64,000 nt of DNA from the NCBI GenBank assembly GCA_903828515.1, contig CAIKMD010000003.1, positions 310,001-374,000 on the forward strand, given 5' to 3'. This DNA comes from an uncultured Rhodospirillales bacterium (GTDB lineage Bacteria > Pseudomonadota > Alphaproteobacteria > ATCC43930 > CGMCC-115725). A model generated the notes under the pieces. The model saw only the letters and a list, made by a program, of their open reading frames with translations, was not told the DNA's origin and ran no database searches. How positions within the stretch are numbered: the first letter of the stretch is position 1; each line of letters opens with the position of its first letter. Positions 11,169-21,122 of the stretch are shown piece by piece. Made by a program: the position numbers and the translations under genes.

Positions 11169-12998
11169 ATGGATCTCCGCAACATCGCCATCATCGCCCA
11201 CGTCGATCACGGCAAAACGACGCTGGTCGATCAATTGCTGCGCCAGAGCGGCTCCTTCCGCGCCAATCAGCAAGTGGCGGAACGCGCCATGGATTCCAAC
11301 GATCTGGAACGTGAGCGCGGCATCACCATTCTCGCCAAGTGCACCTCGGTGCAATGGAAGGACACGCGCATCAACATCGTCGACACGCCGGGCCACGCCG
11401 ATTTCGGCGGCGAGGTCGAGCGCATCCTGTCGATGGTCGATGGCGTTCTGGTGCTGGTCGATGCCGCCGAAGGTCCGATGCCGCAGACCAAATTCGTGGT
11501 CGGCAAGGCGTTGCGTCTCGGCCTGAAGCCGATCGTCGTGATCAACAAGATCGACCGTTCCGACGCGCGGCCGGACGAAGTCCATAACGAGATTTTCGAT
11601 CTGTTCGCGGCGCTCGACGCCAACGACGACCAGCTCGATTTCCCGACCCTTTATGCCTCGGGCCGCGCCGGCTGGGCGGTGACCGACCTCGCGCATGAGC
11701 GCAAGGACCTGAACGTCCTGTTCGACCTCATCGTCGCGCACGTCAAACCGCCCGAGGGCGTGATCGACGCGCCCTTCGCGATGCTCGCGACCACGCTCGA
11801 GAACGATCCCTATCTCGGTCGCGTGCTGACCGGCCGTATCCATTCGGGCGTCGCCCGGATGAACATGAACGTCAAATCGCTGTCGCACGACGGCCGGGTT
11901 CTCGAGACCGCGCGCCTGACCAAGCTCCTGGCCTTCCGTGGCCTCGAGCGCCGTCCGGTCGAAGAGGCCGAGGCGGGCGACATCATCGCCATCGCCGGCC
12001 TCGCCGAGACCACGGTCGCCGACACGATCTGCGCGCCCGAGGTCGAGGTGCCGCTTCACGCGCAGCCGGTCGATCCGCCGACCCTCGCGATGAGTTTCGC
12101 CGTCAATGACAGCCCGCTCGCGGGCCGCGAAGGGACCAAGGTCACCTCGCGCATGATCGTCGAGCGCCTGATGCGCGAAGCCGAAGGCAATGTCGCGATC
12201 CGTGTGAGCCAGAGCACCGGTGGCCGCGACGCGACCGAGGTTGCCGGCCGCGGCGAATTGCAATTGGGCGTGCTGATCGAACAGATGCGCCGCGAAGGGT
12301 TCGAGCTCGCGATCTCGCGCCCGCGCGTTTTGTTCAAGAACGACGAGAAGACCGGCGACCGGCTCGAGCCGATCGAGGAAGTCGTGATCGATCTCGACGA
12401 GCCCTATGCCGGGGTCGTGGTCGAGAAGATGGCCCTGCGCAAAGGCGAGATGCAGGAGATGCGTCCCACGGGCGGCGGCAAGCTCCGGCTGGTGTTCCTC
12501 GCGCCGACGCGCGGCCTGATCGGCTATCTCGGCCAGTTCCTCACCGACACGCGCGGCACCGGCGTGATGAGCCGCCTCTTCCACGGCTACGGCCCGTGGA
12601 AAGGCGCGATCGAAGGTCGCCGCACGGGCGTGCTGATCTCGACGACGGGCGGCGACGCGGTTGCCTTCGCCTTGTGGAACCTCGAAGAACGCGGACCGAT
12701 GTTCATCGTCCCCGGCACGCCGGTATACGAAGGCATGGTCATCGGCGCGCATACCCGCGGCAACGATCTCGACGTCAATCCGACCAAGGGCAAACAGCTC
12801 ACCAACATCCGCACCACGGCGGCGGACGAAGCGGTGCGCCTGACCACGCCGATCATCATGACGCTCGAACAGGCGATCGCTTACATCGAGGACGACGAGC
12901 TGGTCGAGGTGACGCCGAAATCGATCCGGATTCGCAAACGCTGGCTCGACCCCAACGAGCGCAAGCGCGAGAGCCGCAAGGCCGAAGCGACGGGCTGA
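11169..12998 (+). CDS. typA: Ribosome-associated GTPase TypA/BipA
   Basis: TypA is a translational GTPase related to EF-G that acts on the ribosome under stress and in cold. The 609-residue product begins [23 protein letters not shown] with the G1 P-loop. It has ERERGITI (switch I), [14 protein letters not shown] (G3) and [11 protein letters not shown] (G4), followed by EF-G-like domains and the TypA-specific C-terminal region, with [11 protein letters not shown] and [10 protein letters not shown]. Length and motifs are complete. Confidence 0.97.
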
Positions 12999-13199
12999 CA
13001 AGCGTCGGGGCGATACCTGCTCGCCTGCGCTCCTAAGTAGATTCCGATTCTACCTTTGCGGCGTCGTTGCCGGGTAGACTCGTCCTCGCTCCACGAAATT
13101 CGCGCGATGATCCACGTCTGACGACGATCGCTGTCGTCCGAGACCGGGATCGTTCGTCGTCGTGGCACCCGATCCGAGCGGCACGGCCAGGAGACTGAG

Positions 13200-14105
13200 A
13201 TGGCGATCGAGCGGGCTTGCGTACGGGCCGTGCGCAAACCCTGGGGATCCGCCGATCTCCGGCCGTGGAGCGCGATCGACCCCGACGGTGATCCGATCGG
13301 CGAACTGTGGTTTCAGCGCGCCGACGTGAACGCGCCCGATCCGGCCCTGCTGCTCAAGCTCCTGTTCACCACCAAACCGCTGTCGATCCAGGTTCATCCC
13401 GACGACGACTACGCGCGGTCGATCGGCTTGCCGCGCGGCAAAACCGAGGCGTGGTACATCCTCTCGGCGGTGCCGGGCGCGCGGGTCGCCGCCGGCCTGA
13501 AGCGACAGGTGACCGCGCCGCAATTGCGGGCGGCGATCGAGGACGGCTCGATCGCCAACCTGGTGCGCTGGCACGGCGTCCTGAAAGACCATCTTATTTT
13601 CGTTCCGGCGGGCACCATTCATGCGGTCGGCGCCGGACTCGTGGTCGCGGAAATCCAGCAGCGCAGCGACGTGACGTTCCGCCTTTTCGATTACGGCCGG
13701 CAGCGCGCGCTTCAACCCGATGAGGCGGTGGCCGCCGCGAAGACGGATCCCGCCGACTTCCAATCCGTTCATCGACGCCTGACAGATGAAAGAACCCTGT
13801 TGGTCGCCAACCGGAACTTCGTCTTCGAGCGGATCGACCTGCCGGCGAATTCCCATTGGGAACTCAGCGCCGAGAAAGAAACCTGGGCGGTGGTGCTCGA
13901 CGGTCATGCCGAGGTCGGGCCGATCGAACTCGGCGTCGGCGAGGCGCTTTTTATCGAAGCGGACAGCGTCGGCATGACGGTCGGATCCGAGGGCCTGTGT
14001 GGTCTGTTGGCCTATCCGGGGCCCGAGCCCAGTCCCGGTCTGCTGCACGATCTCGACGGAACGGTTGCCGGCCCGCCGGGCGGCTTTGCTGAGGTGCGCC
14101 CATGA
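13200..14105 (+). CDS. manA: Class I mannose-6-phosphate isomerase
   Basis: The enzyme interconverts fructose-6-phosphate and mannose-6-phosphate, the entry point to GDP-mannose. The 301-residue product shows the class I pattern: KPWG near the start, LSIQVHPDD (Gln64 and His66) and KTEAWY (Glu83). PAGTIHAVGAGLVVAEIQQ (His141) completes the expected zinc ligands, and RSDVTFRLFDYGR follows. CAGGAGA lies 7-13 bases before the ATG at 13200. The stop overlaps the GT4 start (ATGA), so supply of a mannose phosphate appears coupled to the next two genes. About 200 bases upstream hold no gene and presumably the promoter. Confidence 0.93.
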   Translation: MAIERACVRAVRKPWGSADLRPWSAIDPDGDPIGELWFQRADVNAPDPALLLKLLFTTKPLSIQVHPDDDYARSIGLPRGKTEAWYILSAVPGARVAAGLKRQVTAPQLRAAIEDGSIANLVRWHGVLKDHLIFVPAGTIHAVGAGLVVAEIQQRSDVTFRLFDYGRQRALQPDEAVAAAKTDPADFQSVHRRLTDERTLLVANRNFVFERIDLPANSHWELSAEKETWAVVLDGHAEVGPIELGVGEALFIEADSVGMTVGSEGLCGLLAYPGPEPSPGLLHDLDGTVAGPPGGFAEVRP

Positions 14106-16411
14106 CCCCCCTTCAACGAATCGCGTTCGTCGGGAATTCGCTGCCGCGGCGTTGCGGGATCGCCACCTTCACGACCGATCTGCAACAGGCGGTCGCGCTG
14201 TCCTGTCCGGGCGTCGAGACCACGATCGTGGCGATGAACGACGACGGTCGCGTCTACGACTACCCGTCCACGGTGGGCTTCCAGGTCAAAGACGACAAAC
14301 TGGAAGACTACATACGGGCCGCCGATTTTCTGAACGCGGGCCGGTTCGACGTGGTCTCGCTTCAGCACGAATTCGGCATTTTCGGGGGCGAGGCCGGCGG
14401 CCACGTCATGGCCCTTCTGTCGCGGCTGACCATGCCGATCGTGACGACGCTCCACACGGTTCTGGCCGATCCCACGCCGGCACAACGCGGCGTTCTCGAT
14501 CGCATCATCGCGGTATCGTCGCGGGTCGTCGTCATGGCCGAGAAGGGACGTGAACTGCTCGACACGGTCTACAAGGTGCCGGCGGCAAAGATCGAGGTCA
14601 TTCCCCACGGGATTCCCGATGTCGCTTTCACCGATCCCGACGAGGCGAAGCAAAAACTCGGGTTCGCCGGCCGGTCGGTCATTCTCACCTTCGGCCTGCT
14701 GTCGCCCAACAAGGGCATCGAAGTGATGATCGATGCGATGCCGGCGATTCTGAAAAATCGTGCCGACGCGGTTTATGTCGTGCTCGGCGCGACACACCCG
14801 AATCTCGTTCGCCAGCATGGCGAGGCCTATCGCGAGAGCCTTATCGCGCGGGTGCGCGAACTCGGGGTCGAAGACAGCGTGGTGTTCCTCGATCAGTTCG
14901 TCGATCAGGCGACGCTGCTCGGCTTCATCGCGATGTGCGATGTCTACGTCACGCCCTATCTCAACGAGGCGCAGATGACGTCGGGCACGCTCGCCTACAG
15001 TTTCGGTTTGGGAAAAGCGGTGGTCTCGACGCCCTATTGGCACGCGCGCGAATTGCTGGCCGACGGACGCGGCATTCTGGTTCCGTTCGGCGATGCCGTT
15101 TCCGTCGCCCACGAGATCGTGGGTTTGCTGACCGACGACACGCGGCGCCTCGCGATGCGCCGGCGCGCTTATGCGAACAGCCGCTCGATGACTTGGGCGC
15201 GCACGGCCCTGCGCTATGTCGCCACTTTCGAAAACAGCCGGGGCGGTCACCGGCTCCGGGTGATCGCGGGATACGATCAAAACCTTTCGCCCCGCGATAT
15301 CCAGGCGCCGCCGGAGATGCAGCTCGGCCATCTTCTGTCGATGTGCGACGACACCGGGCTTTTTCAGCACGCGCTCCATTCGGTGCCCGATCGTTCGCAT
15401 GGCTATTGCGTGGACGACAACGCGCGCGCGCTTCTCGTTTCCTGCGCGCTCAACAATTCCGGCGAGCGGGGCCTGTCCGAAACCCTGACCACCCGATTGG
15501 CGGCTTTCATCCAGCATGCCTGGAACCCTGACACGCGGCGGTTTCGCAACTTCATGAGCTTCGATCGAAACTGGCTCGAGGAAAGCGGTTCGGAGGACAG
15601 CCATGGGCGAACGCTCTGGGCCTTGGGCGTCTGTACCCATGACGACGCGAGTCCGTCGCGGCGGCGCTGGGCCGCTGCCTTGTTCGCCGAAGCGCTGCCG
15701 ACCGCCGAAAGTTTTCGCTCGCCGCGCGCCTGGGCTTTCACGCTGCTCGGGTTGGATGCCTATTGCGTCGCTGGGACGGACGATCCTTTTGCCGAGCGGC
15801 TTCGATCGCTTCTGGCGGATCGGCTGATGGCGATCCTGTCGGCGGTCGAAACCGAGGACTGGGTGTGGTTCGAGGACGGTCTTGCCTACGACAATGCGCG
15901 TCTGCCGCAGGCCCTGATGGCAACCGGCGTTTCGACCGGAAACGCCGCCTACGTCGCGGCCGGTTTGCGATGTTTGCAATGGCTCGTCAAGCTGCAAACG
16001 ACGCCGACCGGTCTGTTCAGGCCGGTCGGTACCGACAGTTTCGGCGAAAAGCGGTCGGCCCCGCGGGCGTTCGATCAGCAGCCGCTGGAAGCCGCGGCGA
16101 CGATCTCGGCGTGCGTGGCGGCGTGGCGCGCGGACGGCAATGTCGACTGGCTGACCGGCGCAACGAGCGTATTTTCATGGTTTCTTGGCCGCAATGATCT
16201 ATCGTTGCCGCTCGTCGACCTGGAAACCGGAAGCTGCCGCGACGGGTTGCACCCCGATCGCCCGAACGAGAACCGGGGCGGCGAGTCCGTCGTGTCCTAT
16301 CTTCTCGGCCTCTTGGAGATTCGGCAGATCGCTCGCCTCGGCGAGGGCCGGGTGAAATTCGTGCCGCGCCTTGCTGGGGGGCGCGAACGCGCCGAAATCC
16401 CAATCGCGTGA
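14102..16411 (+). CDS. GT4-family glycosyltransferase fused to an alpha/alpha-toroid-like domain
   Basis: This 769-residue protein has two parts. Residues 1-380 are a GT-B family 4 glycosyltransferase: RRCGIATFTTDLQ, SLQHEFGIFGGEAG, IPHGIPD, FGLLSPNKGIEVMIDAM, and the acidic EAQMTSGTLAYSFGLGKAVVSTPYW near 289. Residues 400-769 are rich in helices with SHGYCVDDNARALL (about 433), SHGRTLWALG, YDNARLPQALM and NENRGGESVVSYLLGLLEI. That pattern resembles (alpha/alpha)6-barrel glycosidases and epimerases. There is no signal peptide, so it is cytoplasmic. It overlaps manA upstream and the GH130 gene downstream by 4 bases each. I infer a mannosyltransferase making a mannose glycan that GH130 can attack; donor and product are unknown. 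Confidence 0.85.
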   Translation: MTPLQRIAFVGNSLPRRCGIATFTTDLQQAVALSCPGVETTIVAMNDDGRVYDYPSTVGFQVKDDKLEDYIRAADFLNAGRFDVVSLQHEFGIFGGEAGGHVMALLSRLTMPIVTTLHTVLADPTPAQRGVLDRIIAVSSRVVVMAEKGRELLDTVYKVPAAKIEVIPHGIPDVAFTDPDEAKQKLGFAGRSVILTFGLLSPNKGIEVMIDAMPAILKNRADAVYVVLGATHPNLVRQHGEAYRESLIARVRELGVEDSVVFLDQFVDQATLLGFIAMCDVYVTPYLNEAQMTSGTLAYSFGLGKAVVSTPYWHARELLADGRGILVPFGDAVSVAHEIVGLLTDDTRRLAMRRRAYANSRSMTWARTALRYVATFENSRGGHRLRVIAGYDQNLSPRDIQAPPEMQLGHLLSMCDDTGLFQHALHSVPDRSHGYCVDDNARALLVSCALNNSGERGLSETLTTRLAAFIQHAWNPDTRRFRNFMSFDRNWLEESGSEDSHGRTLWALGVCTHDDASPSRRRWAAALFAEALPTAESFRSPRAWAFTLLGLDAYCVAGTDDPFAERLRSLLADRLMAILSAVETEDWVWFEDGLAYDNARLPQALMATGVSTGNAAYVAAGLRCLQWLVKLQTTPTGLFRPVGTDSFGEKRSAPRAFDQQPLEAAATISACVAAWRADGNVDWLTGATSVFSWFLGRNDLSLPLVDLETGSCRDGLHPDRPNENRGGESVVSYLLGLLEIRQIARLGEGRVKFVPRLAGGRERAEIPIA

Positions 16412-17721
16412 GTCGAGGACTCTTTATAAAAGTGTCGTTCCTGAACCGGCAGGCTCTCTACCTGCGGCCCGATCCCGCCCGGGTGATCGTGCGCCCGTTC
16501 CGGCCGGCGACCGAACCGCGCGATCTCAATCCGGTCGACATAACCCGTGCCAATCACATCGTCGACCGGGTCCTAGCGCTCGATCCCGAGGCCGCCGCGA
16601 GCCAGCTCGCGGACGTCCTCGAAAACTTTCAGGGCCGCCACCGCAATCTGCTGAAGACCTTCGAGGCGCGGGCCGACGACATGGAAGAGGCCTTTTCGCT
16701 GCACGACGCATTCACCCAGGTGCAGCGGCAATTGGCCGGCGCCTATTTCCTGCACGAATACTCTTTCGAATCGTCGGCGCTCTTCAATCCCAGCATCGTC
16801 GCTCATCCCGATCAGTCCGGCGCGCCGCCGGGCGGGCGGCGCTTCATCCTCAGTCTTCGCGCGGTCGGCGAGGGCCATGTTTCCTCCCTCACGTTTCGAT
16901 CCGGATCGATCGCCGCTGATGGCGGCGTGCGGGTCGATCCGACGGCGCGTCTCGCGTCGATCCCCAATGTTAAAAGCCGGATAACCGGTCCCAACGGCGA
17001 CAGCGTCGAGATCAACTTCGCGCCGGACACGGATCTCAGCGAAAGGGTGATCTTCCCCGTCACGGACTCCCAGTCGAACGGCATCGAGGATGCCCGTTTC
17101 GTGGAATTCGACGATGGCGAGCGAAGGACCTTCTACGCGACCTACACCGCCTATAGCGGCAAGGGAATCCGGTCGGAGCTGCTCGAAACCCGCGACTTCA
17201 TATCGTTCCGCATGACGCCGCTGACCGGTCCCGCCGCGCGCAACAAGGGCATGGCGCTGTTTCCGCGCAAGATCGACGGGCGATACGCGATGATCGCGCG
17301 CCAGGACAACGAGAATCTCTACCTGATCTATTCGGACGACCTTTATGCGTGGGGCGAGGGCGTGGCGATCTTGAAGCCGCAATTCCCGTGGGAATTCGTC
17401 CAGATCGGCAATTGCGGATCGCCGGTCGAACTCGACGAGGGTTGGCTGCTGCTGACCCACGGCGTCGGTCCGGTGCGCAAATATTCGATCGGCGCGGTTC
17501 TCCTCGATAAGACCGATCCATCGAAGGTGCTCGCCCGCTCGCGCGAGCCGCTGGTGCGCCCCGAACCTTCCGAGCGCGAAGGCTATGTCCCGAACGTGGT
17601 CTACACATGCGGCGCGCTGCGCCACAACGATCAGATCATTCTGCCCTATGCGGTCTCGGACACGTTCTCCAATTTCGCGACGATCAAGATCGCGGAACTG
17701 TTGCAGACGATGCGCAGCTGA
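16408..17721 (+). CDS. GH130-family mannoside phosphorylase or mannosidase
   Basis: GH130 enzymes cleave beta-mannosides, many by phosphorolysis to mannose-1-phosphate, some by hydrolysis of beta-1,2-mannosides. The 437-residue product has the five-bladed-propeller motifs: FNPSIV (127), SNGIEDARFVEF with the probable catalytic Asp228, NKGMALFPRKIDGRYAMIARQD, GNCGSPVELDEGWLLLTHGVG and YVPNVVYTCGAL. An N-terminal extension of about 110 mainly helical residues precedes the propeller, as in the longer GH130 members. It begins at a GTG overlapping the GT4 stop and has no signal peptide. Whether it is a phosphorylase or a hydrolase cannot be told from inspection. Confidence 0.9.
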   Translation: MSRGLFIKVSFLNRQALYLRPDPARVIVRPFRPATEPRDLNPVDITRANHIVDRVLALDPEAAASQLADVLENFQGRHRNLLKTFEARADDMEEAFSLHDAFTQVQRQLAGAYFLHEYSFESSALFNPSIVAHPDQSGAPPGGRRFILSLRAVGEGHVSSLTFRSGSIAADGGVRVDPTARLASIPNVKSRITGPNGDSVEINFAPDTDLSERVIFPVTDSQSNGIEDARFVEFDDGERRTFYATYTAYSGKGIRSELLETRDFISFRMTPLTGPAARNKGMALFPRKIDGRYAMIARQDNENLYLIYSDDLYAWGEGVAILKPQFPWEFVQIGNCGSPVELDEGWLLLTHGVGPVRKYSIGAVLLDKTDPSKVLARSREPLVRPEPSEREGYVPNVVYTCGALRHNDQIILPYAVSDTFSNFATIKIAELLQTMRS

Positions 17722-17730
17722 AGCGGCGCG

Positions 17731-18198
17731 CTACGGACGCTTTTGCCGCGTCGGTCGCTCGATCCAGTCGCGGCCCATCATCAGGAAAGTGAACGAGGTC
17801 GACCATCCGATCAGGATGAGTCCCGCCACGGGTTCCAGACTGGCGATCAAACGCAAGGCGCCGATCGCATAGATGTCGCCGACGCCCTGGGTCGTGTAGG
17901 TTTCGAGCGAGAAATAAAAGAAATCCCGGAAATCCATGACCCGGCTGCTGGTGAACGCGCCGATCTTGAGGCCGCGCACGGCGATCCCGAATCCGACCGC
18001 GAAGATCGCGGCTTCGAGGACATGCGCAGCGATCAGCCCGAAGATGATCAACAGGATTTTGGCGTGACCCGAGGCGCGCCATTCCTGCTGCCAGGTCGAG
18101 AGAATCCGCAGCGCCTGAAAATGCACGCCGACGACAGCGGCGATCAGGATCAGCGCGAGGATCAACGCGGCAAAACTATCGAGCAGGGTGACTTCCAT
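17731..18198 (-). CDS. Two-TM potassium-channel-like membrane protein
   Basis: The 155-residue product has hydrophobic segments at about 8-28, 47-72 and 118-140. Between the last two, SLETYTTQGVGDIYAIG reads as a pore helix and selectivity filter: TTQGVGD (102-108) in place of the classic TVGYGD. This is the Ion_trans_2 (KcsA-like pore) arrangement with an extra N-terminal helix. No cytoplasmic RCK gating domain follows. It starts 8 bases after the GST gene on the same strand and converges on the GH130 gene with a 9-base gap. Ion preference is not established. Confidence 0.75.
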   Translation of the reverse strand: MEVTLLDSFAALILALILIAAVVGVHFQALRILSTWQQEWRASGHAKILLIIFGLIAAHVLEAAIFAVGFGIAVRGLKIGAFTSSRVMDFRDFFYFSLETYTTQGVGDIYAIGALRLIASLEPVAGLILIGWSTSFTFLMMGRDWIERPTRQKRP

Positions 18199-18206
18199 CG
18201 GTGTGC

Positions 18207-18935
18207 TTAGCGCTGTGTTCCGGTTTCATCGGAAGGCTGATACGTCGCCTGCACTGCCGGCCGCACCATCACCCGCTCGTACCATTCGGTGGTGCGCGGA
18301 TGCGTCGTCATCAATTCGGGCCGGACTTCGCGGAACGCGTGGATATAGGGCAGGATCGCGATATCGGCGAGGCTGTAGGCGGCGCCGGCGAGATAGGGAC
18401 TTTCCGATAACGCCGCCTCGCTGCGATCGAAGACGTAATCCATCCGGCCATAGGCCTCGTCGAATTCCTTTTTGCTGAAGCCTTCGCCGCGCAGCGCCTG
18501 CAGCTTCAACCGGTGATCGACCAGCGCGGTCTCGCTCACCACCCGGTCGAATTCGGCCGCGCTCATCGCCTGTACCTGCGCGGCTTTGGTGCGGGTCCAG
18601 GTCGGGATGCGCGTCGCCGGCAGCGCGTATTCGTCCGCCATCTTGCAAAAAATGCGCATCCGCGCGCGGCCCAGGGGATCGGCCGGTTTCAACGGCTTGT
18701 CGGCAAACACCTCGTCGACATATTCGTTGATCACGCCGGATTCGATCACGACCTTCCCGTCATGAACCAGCGTCGGCACCAGCCCGTTGGGATTGAGCTT
18801 CAGATAGGCCGGATCGTGATGCTCGAACTTGCCGAGATTGAGGTAATGGCTTTTATAGGCCAGTCCCTTTTCTTTGAGCGCGAGGCGCGATTTCTTCGAG
18901 CAGGTGGTCAAGCCGGCATGATAAAGTTCGAGCAT
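18207..18935 (-). CDS. Glutathione S-transferase family protein
   Basis: The 242-residue product (ATG at 18935) begins LELYHAGLTTCSKKSRLALKEKGL, a thioredoxin-fold GST N-domain with TTCSKK in the catalytic Ser/Cys position. LNPNGLVPTLVHDG and VIESGVINEYVDEVF follow, which form the glutathione-binding loop. The C-terminal helical domain has SLADIAILPYIHAF. GGGAGGC precedes the ATG; the open frame further upstream overlaps the divergent isochorismatase gene and is not used. The substrate is unknown. It is followed by the channel gene 8 bases away. Confidence 0.9.
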   Translation of the reverse strand: MLELYHAGLTTCSKKSRLALKEKGLAYKSHYLNLGKFEHHDPAYLKLNPNGLVPTLVHDGKVVIESGVINEYVDEVFADKPLKPADPLGRARMRIFCKMADEYALPATRIPTWTRTKAAQVQAMSAAEFDRVVSETALVDHRLKLQALRGEGFSKKEFDEAYGRMDYVFDRSEAALSESPYLAGAAYSLADIAILPYIHAFREVRPELMTTHPRTTEWYERVMVRPAVQATYQPSDETGTQR

Positions 18936-19849: not shown

Positions 19850-19949
19850 TCGATTTGATTGGCTATCGTTCCAATCGGTACGCTTGACCGCGCGCGATCC
19901 TGGGATAAGGTCGCGGCTCCCTTTTCACCGCAACATCTCGGATCGCGCC

Positions 19950-20507
19950 ATGTTCAGAGCCGCCTCTCTTCTCGCTTTCGCCGCCGCCTTGTTCCTTCAT
20001 CTGGCGCCGGTCAGCGCTGCCGATCTCGACAACACGCTCTATCTCGACGTGCCGAAGGGCCGCGTCGTCATCGAGCTGCGTCCCGACCTCGCGCCGAAAA
20101 CGGTCGAACAGATCAAGGCATTGGCGCGGCGCGGCTTTTATGACGGAATCGTCTTCCATCGCGTGATCGACGGCTTCATGGCGCAGACCGGCGATCCGAC
20201 GGGCACCGGCGGCGGCGGTTCGGGTCATACGCTGAAGGCCGAATTCAACCAGGCGCATTTCGTGCGCGGCACGCTCGGCATGGCGCGCACCTCCGATCCG
20301 AACAGCGCCGACAGCCAGTTCTTCATCTGCTTCGCGCCGGCGCCTAACCTCGACGGCCAGTACACGATTTTCGGCCAGGTGACGTCGGGCATGGAATTCA
20401 TCGATGCGATCAAGAAGGGCAGCCCCGCCCAGAACGGCCTGGTGAGCAATCCGGACAAGATCGTGCGGATGCAGGTCGCGTCGGACGCCGCCAAAAGCGG
20501 CAAATAG
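19950..20507 (+). CDS. Periplasmic cyclophilin-type peptidyl-prolyl isomerase
   Basis: The 185-residue product has a signal peptide (MFRAASLLAFAAALFLHLAPVSA, cleavage likely before ADLDN) and a cyclophilin domain. FHRVIDGFMAQTGDPTGTGGGG carries the catalytic Arg-Phe region; SADSQFFICFAPAPNLDGQYTIFGQV and KKGSPAQNG follow. It would assist folding of exported proteins. The next gene is a closely related cyclophilin without a signal peptide, so the pair looks like a tandem duplication split between compartments. Confidence 0.94.
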   Translation: MFRAASLLAFAAALFLHLAPVSAADLDNTLYLDVPKGRVVIELRPDLAPKTVEQIKALARRGFYDGIVFHRVIDGFMAQTGDPTGTGGGGSGHTLKAEFNQAHFVRGTLGMARTSDPNSADSQFFICFAPAPNLDGQYTIFGQVTSGMEFIDAIKKGSPAQNGLVSNPDKIVRMQVASDAAKSGK

Positions 20508-20645: not shown

Positions 20646-21122
20646 GTGGAAGACACTCTTTATCTCGACGTGCCCAAGGGCCGCGTCACCATCAAACTGC
20701 GTCCCGATCTCGCGCCGAACACCGTGGCGCGGATCAAGGAACTCGCGCGCGAAGGTTTCTATGACGGCATCGTCTTTCATCGCGTGATCGACGGCTTCAT
20801 GGCGCAGACCGGCGATCCGCGCGGCGACGGCACCGGCGGCTCGGGCAAGCATTTGAAGGCCGAATTCAATTCGGGCAAGCATCTGCGCGGCACCGTGTCG
20901 ATGGCGCGCGCCAACGATCCCGATAGCGCCGACAGCCAGTTCTTCATCTGCTTCGCGCCCGCGCCGTTCCTCGACGGCAAATACACCATCTTCGGCGAAG
21001 TGACCGAAGGCATGGACCATATCGACGCGATCAAGAAGGGCAGCGCCAGCCAAAACGGCTCGGTCTCGAACCCCGACAAGATCACCAAGATGCAGGTCGC
21101 GGCCGACGCGGATAAGAAGTAA
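20646..21122 (+). CDS. Cytoplasmic cyclophilin-type peptidyl-prolyl isomerase
   Basis: The 158-residue product starts at a GTG and directly enters the cyclophilin fold (EDTLYLDVPKGRVTIKLRPD). It contains FHRVIDGFMAQTGDPRGDGTGG, DSADSQFFICFAPAPFLDGKYTIFGEV and a lysine-rich end. No signal peptide is present. It is a clear paralogue of the secreted cyclophilin 138 bases upstream; the two share long identical blocks such as YDGIVFHRVIDGFMAQTGDP. Protein proline isomerisation in the cytoplasm is the expected role. Confidence 0.94.
   Translation: MEDTLYLDVPKGRVTIKLRPDLAPNTVARIKELAREGFYDGIVFHRVIDGFMAQTGDPRGDGTGGSGKHLKAEFNSGKHLRGTVSMARANDPDSADSQFFICFAPAPFLDGKYTIFGEVTEGMDHIDAIKKGSASQNGSVSNPDKITKMQVAADADKK

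Follow-up and report, generated by a model that had tools for sequence, protein, structure and literature searches.

The stretch of 64,000 nucleotides analysed here (hereafter the window), from an uncultured Rhodospirillales bacterium, carries in immediate succession a manA-like gene, a gene for a GT4 glycosyltransferase domain fused to a toroid domain, and a GH130 gene. Do these genes form a dedicated unit, and would such a unit make, recycle or only degrade mannosides? The features of the locus, with the evidence for each, are:

13188–13193, + strand: CAGGAG ribosome-binding site 5' of manA (sequence)
13200–14105, + strand: putative class I mannose-6-phosphate isomerase (ManA-like), 301 aa (TIGR00218 E 1.6e-14, below cut-off; Zn ligands invariant in 23 orthologues)
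14102–16411, + strand: entire GT4-toroid protein, 769 aa (265 relatives in a single GTDB contig scan, the best 80 at 69–78% identity)
14102–15241, + strand: putative GT4 (GT-B) glycosyltransferase domain, residues 1–380 (Pfam PF13692, 64.9 bits; PimA/MshA alignment)
15299–16366, + strand: predicted C-terminal (alpha/alpha) toroid domain, residues ~400–755 (AlphaFold pTM 0.83; Foldseek 7tem, E 2e-10; invariant residues)
16408–17721, + strand: entire GH130 protein, 437 aa (ORF; Pfam GH130)
16408–16782, + strand: GH130 N-terminal extension, predicted mainly helical, residues ~1–125 (AlphaFold secondary structure)
16783–17721, + strand: GH130 five-bladed propeller with E227-D228, K280, R298, Q332 and H351 (Pfam PF04041, 128 bits; Foldseek 9gph, TM(target) 0.76; residue census)

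Layout, conservation and distribution of the operon

The first-pass annotation described three genes joined by ATGA and GTGA overlaps and free of signal peptides. The ORF coordinates bear out the first statement: all three ORFs are on the + strand and neighbours overlap by 4 bp each (ATGA, then GTGA). A hydropathy scan agrees with the second, as it found no signal-peptide-like N-terminus in the three proteins. The upstream neighbour is typA, at a gap of 201 bp, and a convergent ion-channel gene lies downstream. Elsewhere in the window, two adjacent cyclophilin-type peptidyl-prolyl isomerase look-alikes (19863–20507 and 20646–21122) form an apparent tandem duplication.

We then compared the organization of related loci, i.e. 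the best 80 from the contig scan. In 77 of the 80, the GT4-toroid gene has a same-strand GH130 gene on its 3' side, and in 63 it has manA on its 5' side. Of 64 loci, with the window counted in, 52 keep a manA/GT4 overlap of exactly 4 bp. The flanks of the operon differ between genera, and at just 3 of 63 loci does an ORF on the same strand lie upstream at a distance of 60 bp or less. Among 399 Pseudomonadota genomes, the toroid protein is present in 19 and a long-form GH130 (scored at 350 bits or more by the long-form profile) in 17, all of which are within the 19 (Fisher 5e-28, a p value that overstates independence because the genomes are related). Linkage of the GT4-toroid and long GH130 genes is still seen at 38–50% identity, and in Fusobacteria. 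This confirms, by the kept overlap and the linkage, that the operon is a real conserved unit and not a chance arrangement; the neighbourhood search proposed earlier has thus found the three genes together as expected. With the lack of signal-peptide-like N-termini, the linkage counts also support the earlier view of a co-inherited cytoplasmic mannoside unit.

The module is compact, widely distributed and patchily inherited in bacteria. It is found in Bradyrhizobium, Bosea, Sphingomonads and Steroidobacter, and in altered form in Fusobacteria and Deinococci; plasmid-borne relatives occur in Sphingobium, Sphingomonas, Novosphingobium, Devosia, Ilyobacter and Deinococcus. Among the genomes sampled from the window's family, strong matches are confined to the window's genome and one other, with two more from the same order. 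With so patchy an occurrence and few carriers in its own family, the module is accessory. No direction of transfer is claimed, since the GT4 tree contains long branches and leaves many forks open. A record named Mycobacterium sp. KBS0706 has three GT4-toroid copies (L005, L012 and L023), two of them without an adjoining GH130 gene; the two copies placed in the tree cluster with alphaproteobacterial sequences, so this assembly is probably misnamed. We found no earlier description of a GT4-toroid/GH130 operon in the open-licence literature. The parts belong to known enzyme families, but two of the enzymes have unusual active sites, and we saw neither this combination nor these modifications described in that literature.

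Folds and active-site residues of the three proteins

ManA scores 53.9 bits against TIGR00218 (curated cut-off 116) and 17.8 against Pfam PMI (cut-off 22), and its expected metal (Zn) ligands Q64, H66, E83 and H141 are invariant across 23 orthologues.

The GT4 domain matches its Pfam family well above the cut-off of 27 bits, and its closest solved relatives are MshA and PimA. In alignments to these two enzymes, L199 replaces a conserved Arg of MshA (Leu in 22/22 orthologues), which in GT4 enzymes is the usual diphosphate-binding Arg. Q291-x7-Y299 replaces the EX7E motif, with Tyr at the second-Glu position in 20 of 22. Because this Arg and the second EX7E Glu are missing, use of GDP-mannose by the domain is not assured. 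Many GT4 enzymes serve envelope glycans. With MshA and PimA as the top solved relatives, the unit could be imagined to make or remodel a glycolipid or LPS decoration at the cytoplasmic face. We regard such a surface or lipid-linked product as unlikely, since no flippase, polymerase or export gene was recognised in the annotated plasmid neighbourhoods, the unit comprises three genes with varying flanks, and GH130 would be an unusual partner in an export pathway.

For the C-terminal domain, the guess of a fold like an alpha/alpha-barrel glycosidase or epimerase was upheld by the structure prediction and by Foldseek matches to N-acylglucosamine 2-epimerase-like folds, i.e. the predicted fold is of a carbohydrate type rather than an unrelated one. 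The best PDB match is Yersinia YPO2471 (7tem; TM 0.70), followed by AGE-superfamily epimerases and GH76 mannanases. YPO2471 is also the sole match in a sequence search (E 4e-6), and no Pfam family matched the domain. The motifs DDN, ED, QQ..E and NxNxGxES are invariant among relatives, as are many Asp, Glu, Arg, Trp and His residues, which suggests a working carbohydrate site.

The GH130 protein clears the Pfam cut-off of 26 bits by a wide margin, and the best fold match of its propeller is Teth514_1788. Among solved structures, its nearest relatives are beta-1,2-mannoside phosphorylases. These solved chains are shorter, the sequence match to them begins near residue 211, and the N-terminal ~125 residues are without counterpart among solved GH130s. 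The catalytic Asp (D228) is invariant (35/35 and 14/14), and E227, which precedes it, and K280 are invariant in 35/35. A Glu before the catalytic Asp and a specificity Lys have been tied to beta-1,2 specificity (PMC4599007). K280 is probably the equivalent of Lys199 of BT3780, judging from the Teth514 alignments, and the Glu-Asp and Lys residues point to a Man-beta-1,2-Man substrate.

In GH130 mannoside phosphorylases, three basic residues bind phosphate (PMC4599007). The basic positions common to the solved phosphorylases (Arg, Lys/Arg, His) correspond to R298, Q332 and H351 in the long form, and from the alignments these would be the three phosphate-site positions. Gln occupies position 332 in 34 of 35 orthologues and in 12/12 long forms, where the solved phosphorylases have Lys or Arg. 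The protein therefore falls outside the three-basic-residue pattern of mannoside phosphorylases, with Gln332 in the third position, and the presence of a Gln among these residues makes phosphorolysis doubtful. A beta-1,2-mannosidase of the BT3780 type was considered and rejected: such enzymes are secreted and have acidic residues in place of the basic ones, whereas Arg, Gln and His are found here without a signal-peptide-like N-terminus, and the profile NF058598 gives 24 bits against a cut-off of 550.

GT4 enzymes are retaining, so that a GDP-alpha-mannose donor gives alpha linkages, while GH130 enzymes are inverting and act on beta-mannosides. The bond made by the GT4 domain should therefore differ from the one cleaved by GH130. 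The proposed loop, in which GT4 builds a glycan and GH130 phosphorolyses it, does not hold if one and the same bond is meant, and Gln332 weakens its phosphorolytic step as well.

Neighbouring genes, direction and regulation

The most informative relative lies on plasmid pSAMIE_2 of Sphingobium amiense (L112, 3909–13160), where groES-groEL is followed by GMP, manA, GT4-toroid, GH130 and PMM genes in one direction. This five-gene run supplies the whole route from Fru-6-P through Man-1-P to GDP-Man, plus the GT4-toroid/GH130 pair. pSAMIE_2 is a conjugative plasmid, and similar GT4-toroid matches occur on several further Sphingomonad plasmids. The earlier remark on the lack of adjacent GDP-mannose genes is correct for the window but not for this homologue, and the window's genome encodes the families outside the operon (GMP/PMI and three PGM/PMM-family genes).

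The ManA reaction is reversible, and ManA might instead pass mannose-6-phosphate to glycolysis after GH130 has phosphorolysed imported plant or fungal beta-mannan fragments. Catabolism of imported mannan is the role of the best studied GH130 enzymes (PMC8950772, PMC4599007). Here it seems quite improbable: neither a mannan importer nor an endo-mannanase was recognised in the annotated plasmid neighbourhoods or among ten recurrent neighbour families compared with Pfam (a sample of the neighbour genes), GH130 has a synthetic enzyme, the GT4, as its obligate partner, the GH130 residues are of the beta-1,2 and not the beta-1,4 type, and the Sphingobium operon includes GMP and PMM genes. The anabolic direction is favoured because, in this sample, mannose-activation genes rather than importers accompany the GT4-toroid/GH130 pair. 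Biosynthesis and turnover are likewise favoured over import by the enzyme families of the host genome, and nothing in the neighbourhoods examined resembled a locus for plant-mannan breakdown, which would be expected if GH130 acted only on imported plant fragments.

In a salvage pathway of the kind put forward for Thermoanaerobacter, GH130 would yield Man-1-P without ATP for GDP-mannose synthesis. The Teth514 cluster combines GH130, mannose-1-P guanylyltransferase and GT4 genes (PMC4264767), and the Sphingobium module is adjoined by a GMP gene. However, salvage would be unnecessary where the operon's ManA gives Man-6-P de novo, the Teth cluster includes ABC transporters and the window's operon does not, and GH130 has Gln332. 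We thus give salvage little chance.

A second GT4 protein (GT4b), with canonical Arg and EX7E motifs, is encoded near the operon in 11 of 80 loci, mostly in Bosea. These genes (L004, L006, L007, L011, L017, L021, L028, L042, L053, L064 and L081) encode proteins 54–58% identical to Ilyobacter GT4b, and in Bosea GT4b usually adjoins a gene of the GH13 alpha-amylase family. GH130 genes are likewise flanked by this GT4b in Ilyobacter (GT4b, short GH130, long GH130, GT4-toroid) and Deinococcus (GT4-toroid, GT4b, short GH130-like protein). The window's genome has no close homologue of GT4b that could act as a second mannosyltransferase. At many Bradyrhizobium loci, a conserved same-strand gene of ~80 aa lies 3' of GH130 (L018, 9679–9921; L062, 9687–9929); no Pfam family matched the L062 copy, and the gene was not seen in the window.

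In 12950–18250 of the window, no sigma-70-like promoter was found and terminators were not above shuffled sequence. The ribosome-binding site CAGGAG is the most frequent hexamer 5' of manA in 53 dereplicated loci, and a de novo search for upstream dyads recovered only this site and a leader common to related strains. In Bradyrhizobium-type loci (e.g. L018), a common leader motif, CCAACGGCATnTCGC ... GCGT, directly precedes the ribosome-binding site 5' of manA; it could be a regulatory site or reflect common ancestry. The EcfG motif GGAAC-N15-19-CGTT is present upstream in 6 of 81 loci (0.6 expected), half of them from the Kaistia group, and absent in the window, so an EcfG general stress promoter is not general. 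In the Kaistia-related loci L041, L044 and L072, an EcfG-type -35/-10 pair stands ~120 bp 5' of manA. An FNR/FixK box was found upstream of the operon at 0 of 81 loci, though some neighbours appear hypoxia-related.

A putative mannoside cycle and its known counterparts

In brief, we see an even chance that the unit is a dedicated cytoplasmic system that makes and turns over a soluble mannose oligosaccharide, most likely beta-1,2-linked and thus mannogen-like. In such a cycle, (i) ManA would convert fructose-6-phosphate to mannose-6-phosphate; (ii) phosphomannomutase and GMP, both encoded elsewhere in the genome, would form Man-1-P and then GDP-Man, the presumed donor; (iii) the GT4-toroid protein would make or prime an alpha-mannosylated acceptor, with the toroid domain acting on, or holding, the glycan of the GT4 domain; and (iv) the long-form GH130 would add and/or remove beta-1,2-mannosyl residues on this acceptor. 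The data show the operon, its conservation, the folds and the residue patterns, from which the direction, donor, linkage, product and physiological role are inferred. The analogy to Leishmania mannogen (PMC8950772) and stress-type neighbours at some loci (groESL, cold shock and cyd) hint at a storage or stress role of the mannoside, although the loci showed no common regulatory site. Shared by the genera named above, the unit would imply that common soil and plant bacteria contain an intracellular mannose glycan not recognised so far, and the idea of a bacterial mannogen can be tested directly on this operon. Annotation of the EX7E-less GT4-toroid as a glycosyltransferase, or of the Gln-site GH130 as a mannoside phosphorylase, may mislead.

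In common with PimA and MshA, the GT4 domain has a GT-B fold with an alignable C-terminal half, and its His118 is invariant; it differs from them in the absence of the canonical Arg and EX7E Glu. The toroid has its fold in common with the AGE superfamily, cellobiose 2-epimerase and D-mannose isomerase (TM ~0.55–0.65), at only 8–14% identity and without a Pfam match of its own. Yersinia pestis YPO2471 has the NxxGxES motif in common with it, but is annotated as exported and lacks the GT4 fusion; we know of no function assigned to this protein.

Teth514_1788/1789 of Thermoanaerobacter X-514 are beta-1,2-mannoside phosphorylases in a GT4/guanylyltransferase cluster (PMC4264767). Like the operon's enzyme, they are cytoplasmic Glu-Asp/Lys (beta-1,2) GH130 proteins encoded beside a GT4 and a mannose-activation gene. 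They are, however, short (~300 aa), with Arg/Lys in the phosphate site and ABC transporters in the cluster, whereas the operon's GH130 has 437 aa, an N-terminal extension and Gln332, and its GT4 carries a toroid.

Leishmania mannogen is a cytoplasmic beta-1,2-mannan cycle run by GT108 mannosyltransferase/phosphorylases (PMC8950772). Both systems use GH130-fold enzymes, and the GT108 structures 6q4x and 6q50 are among the GH130 fold-search matches. The similarity is one of fold only and far weaker than that to GH130 proper, and the Leishmania system has no GT4-toroid. More speculatively, and with somewhat poor prospects, the long-form GH130 clade (helical extension, Arg-Gln-His) might be a non-phosphorylase beta-1,2-mannosyl synthase or transferase that builds soluble beta-mannan with its obligate EX7E-less GT4-toroid, which would amount to a bacterial equivalent of Leishmania mannogen that has spread horizontally and is produced by another pair of enzymes.
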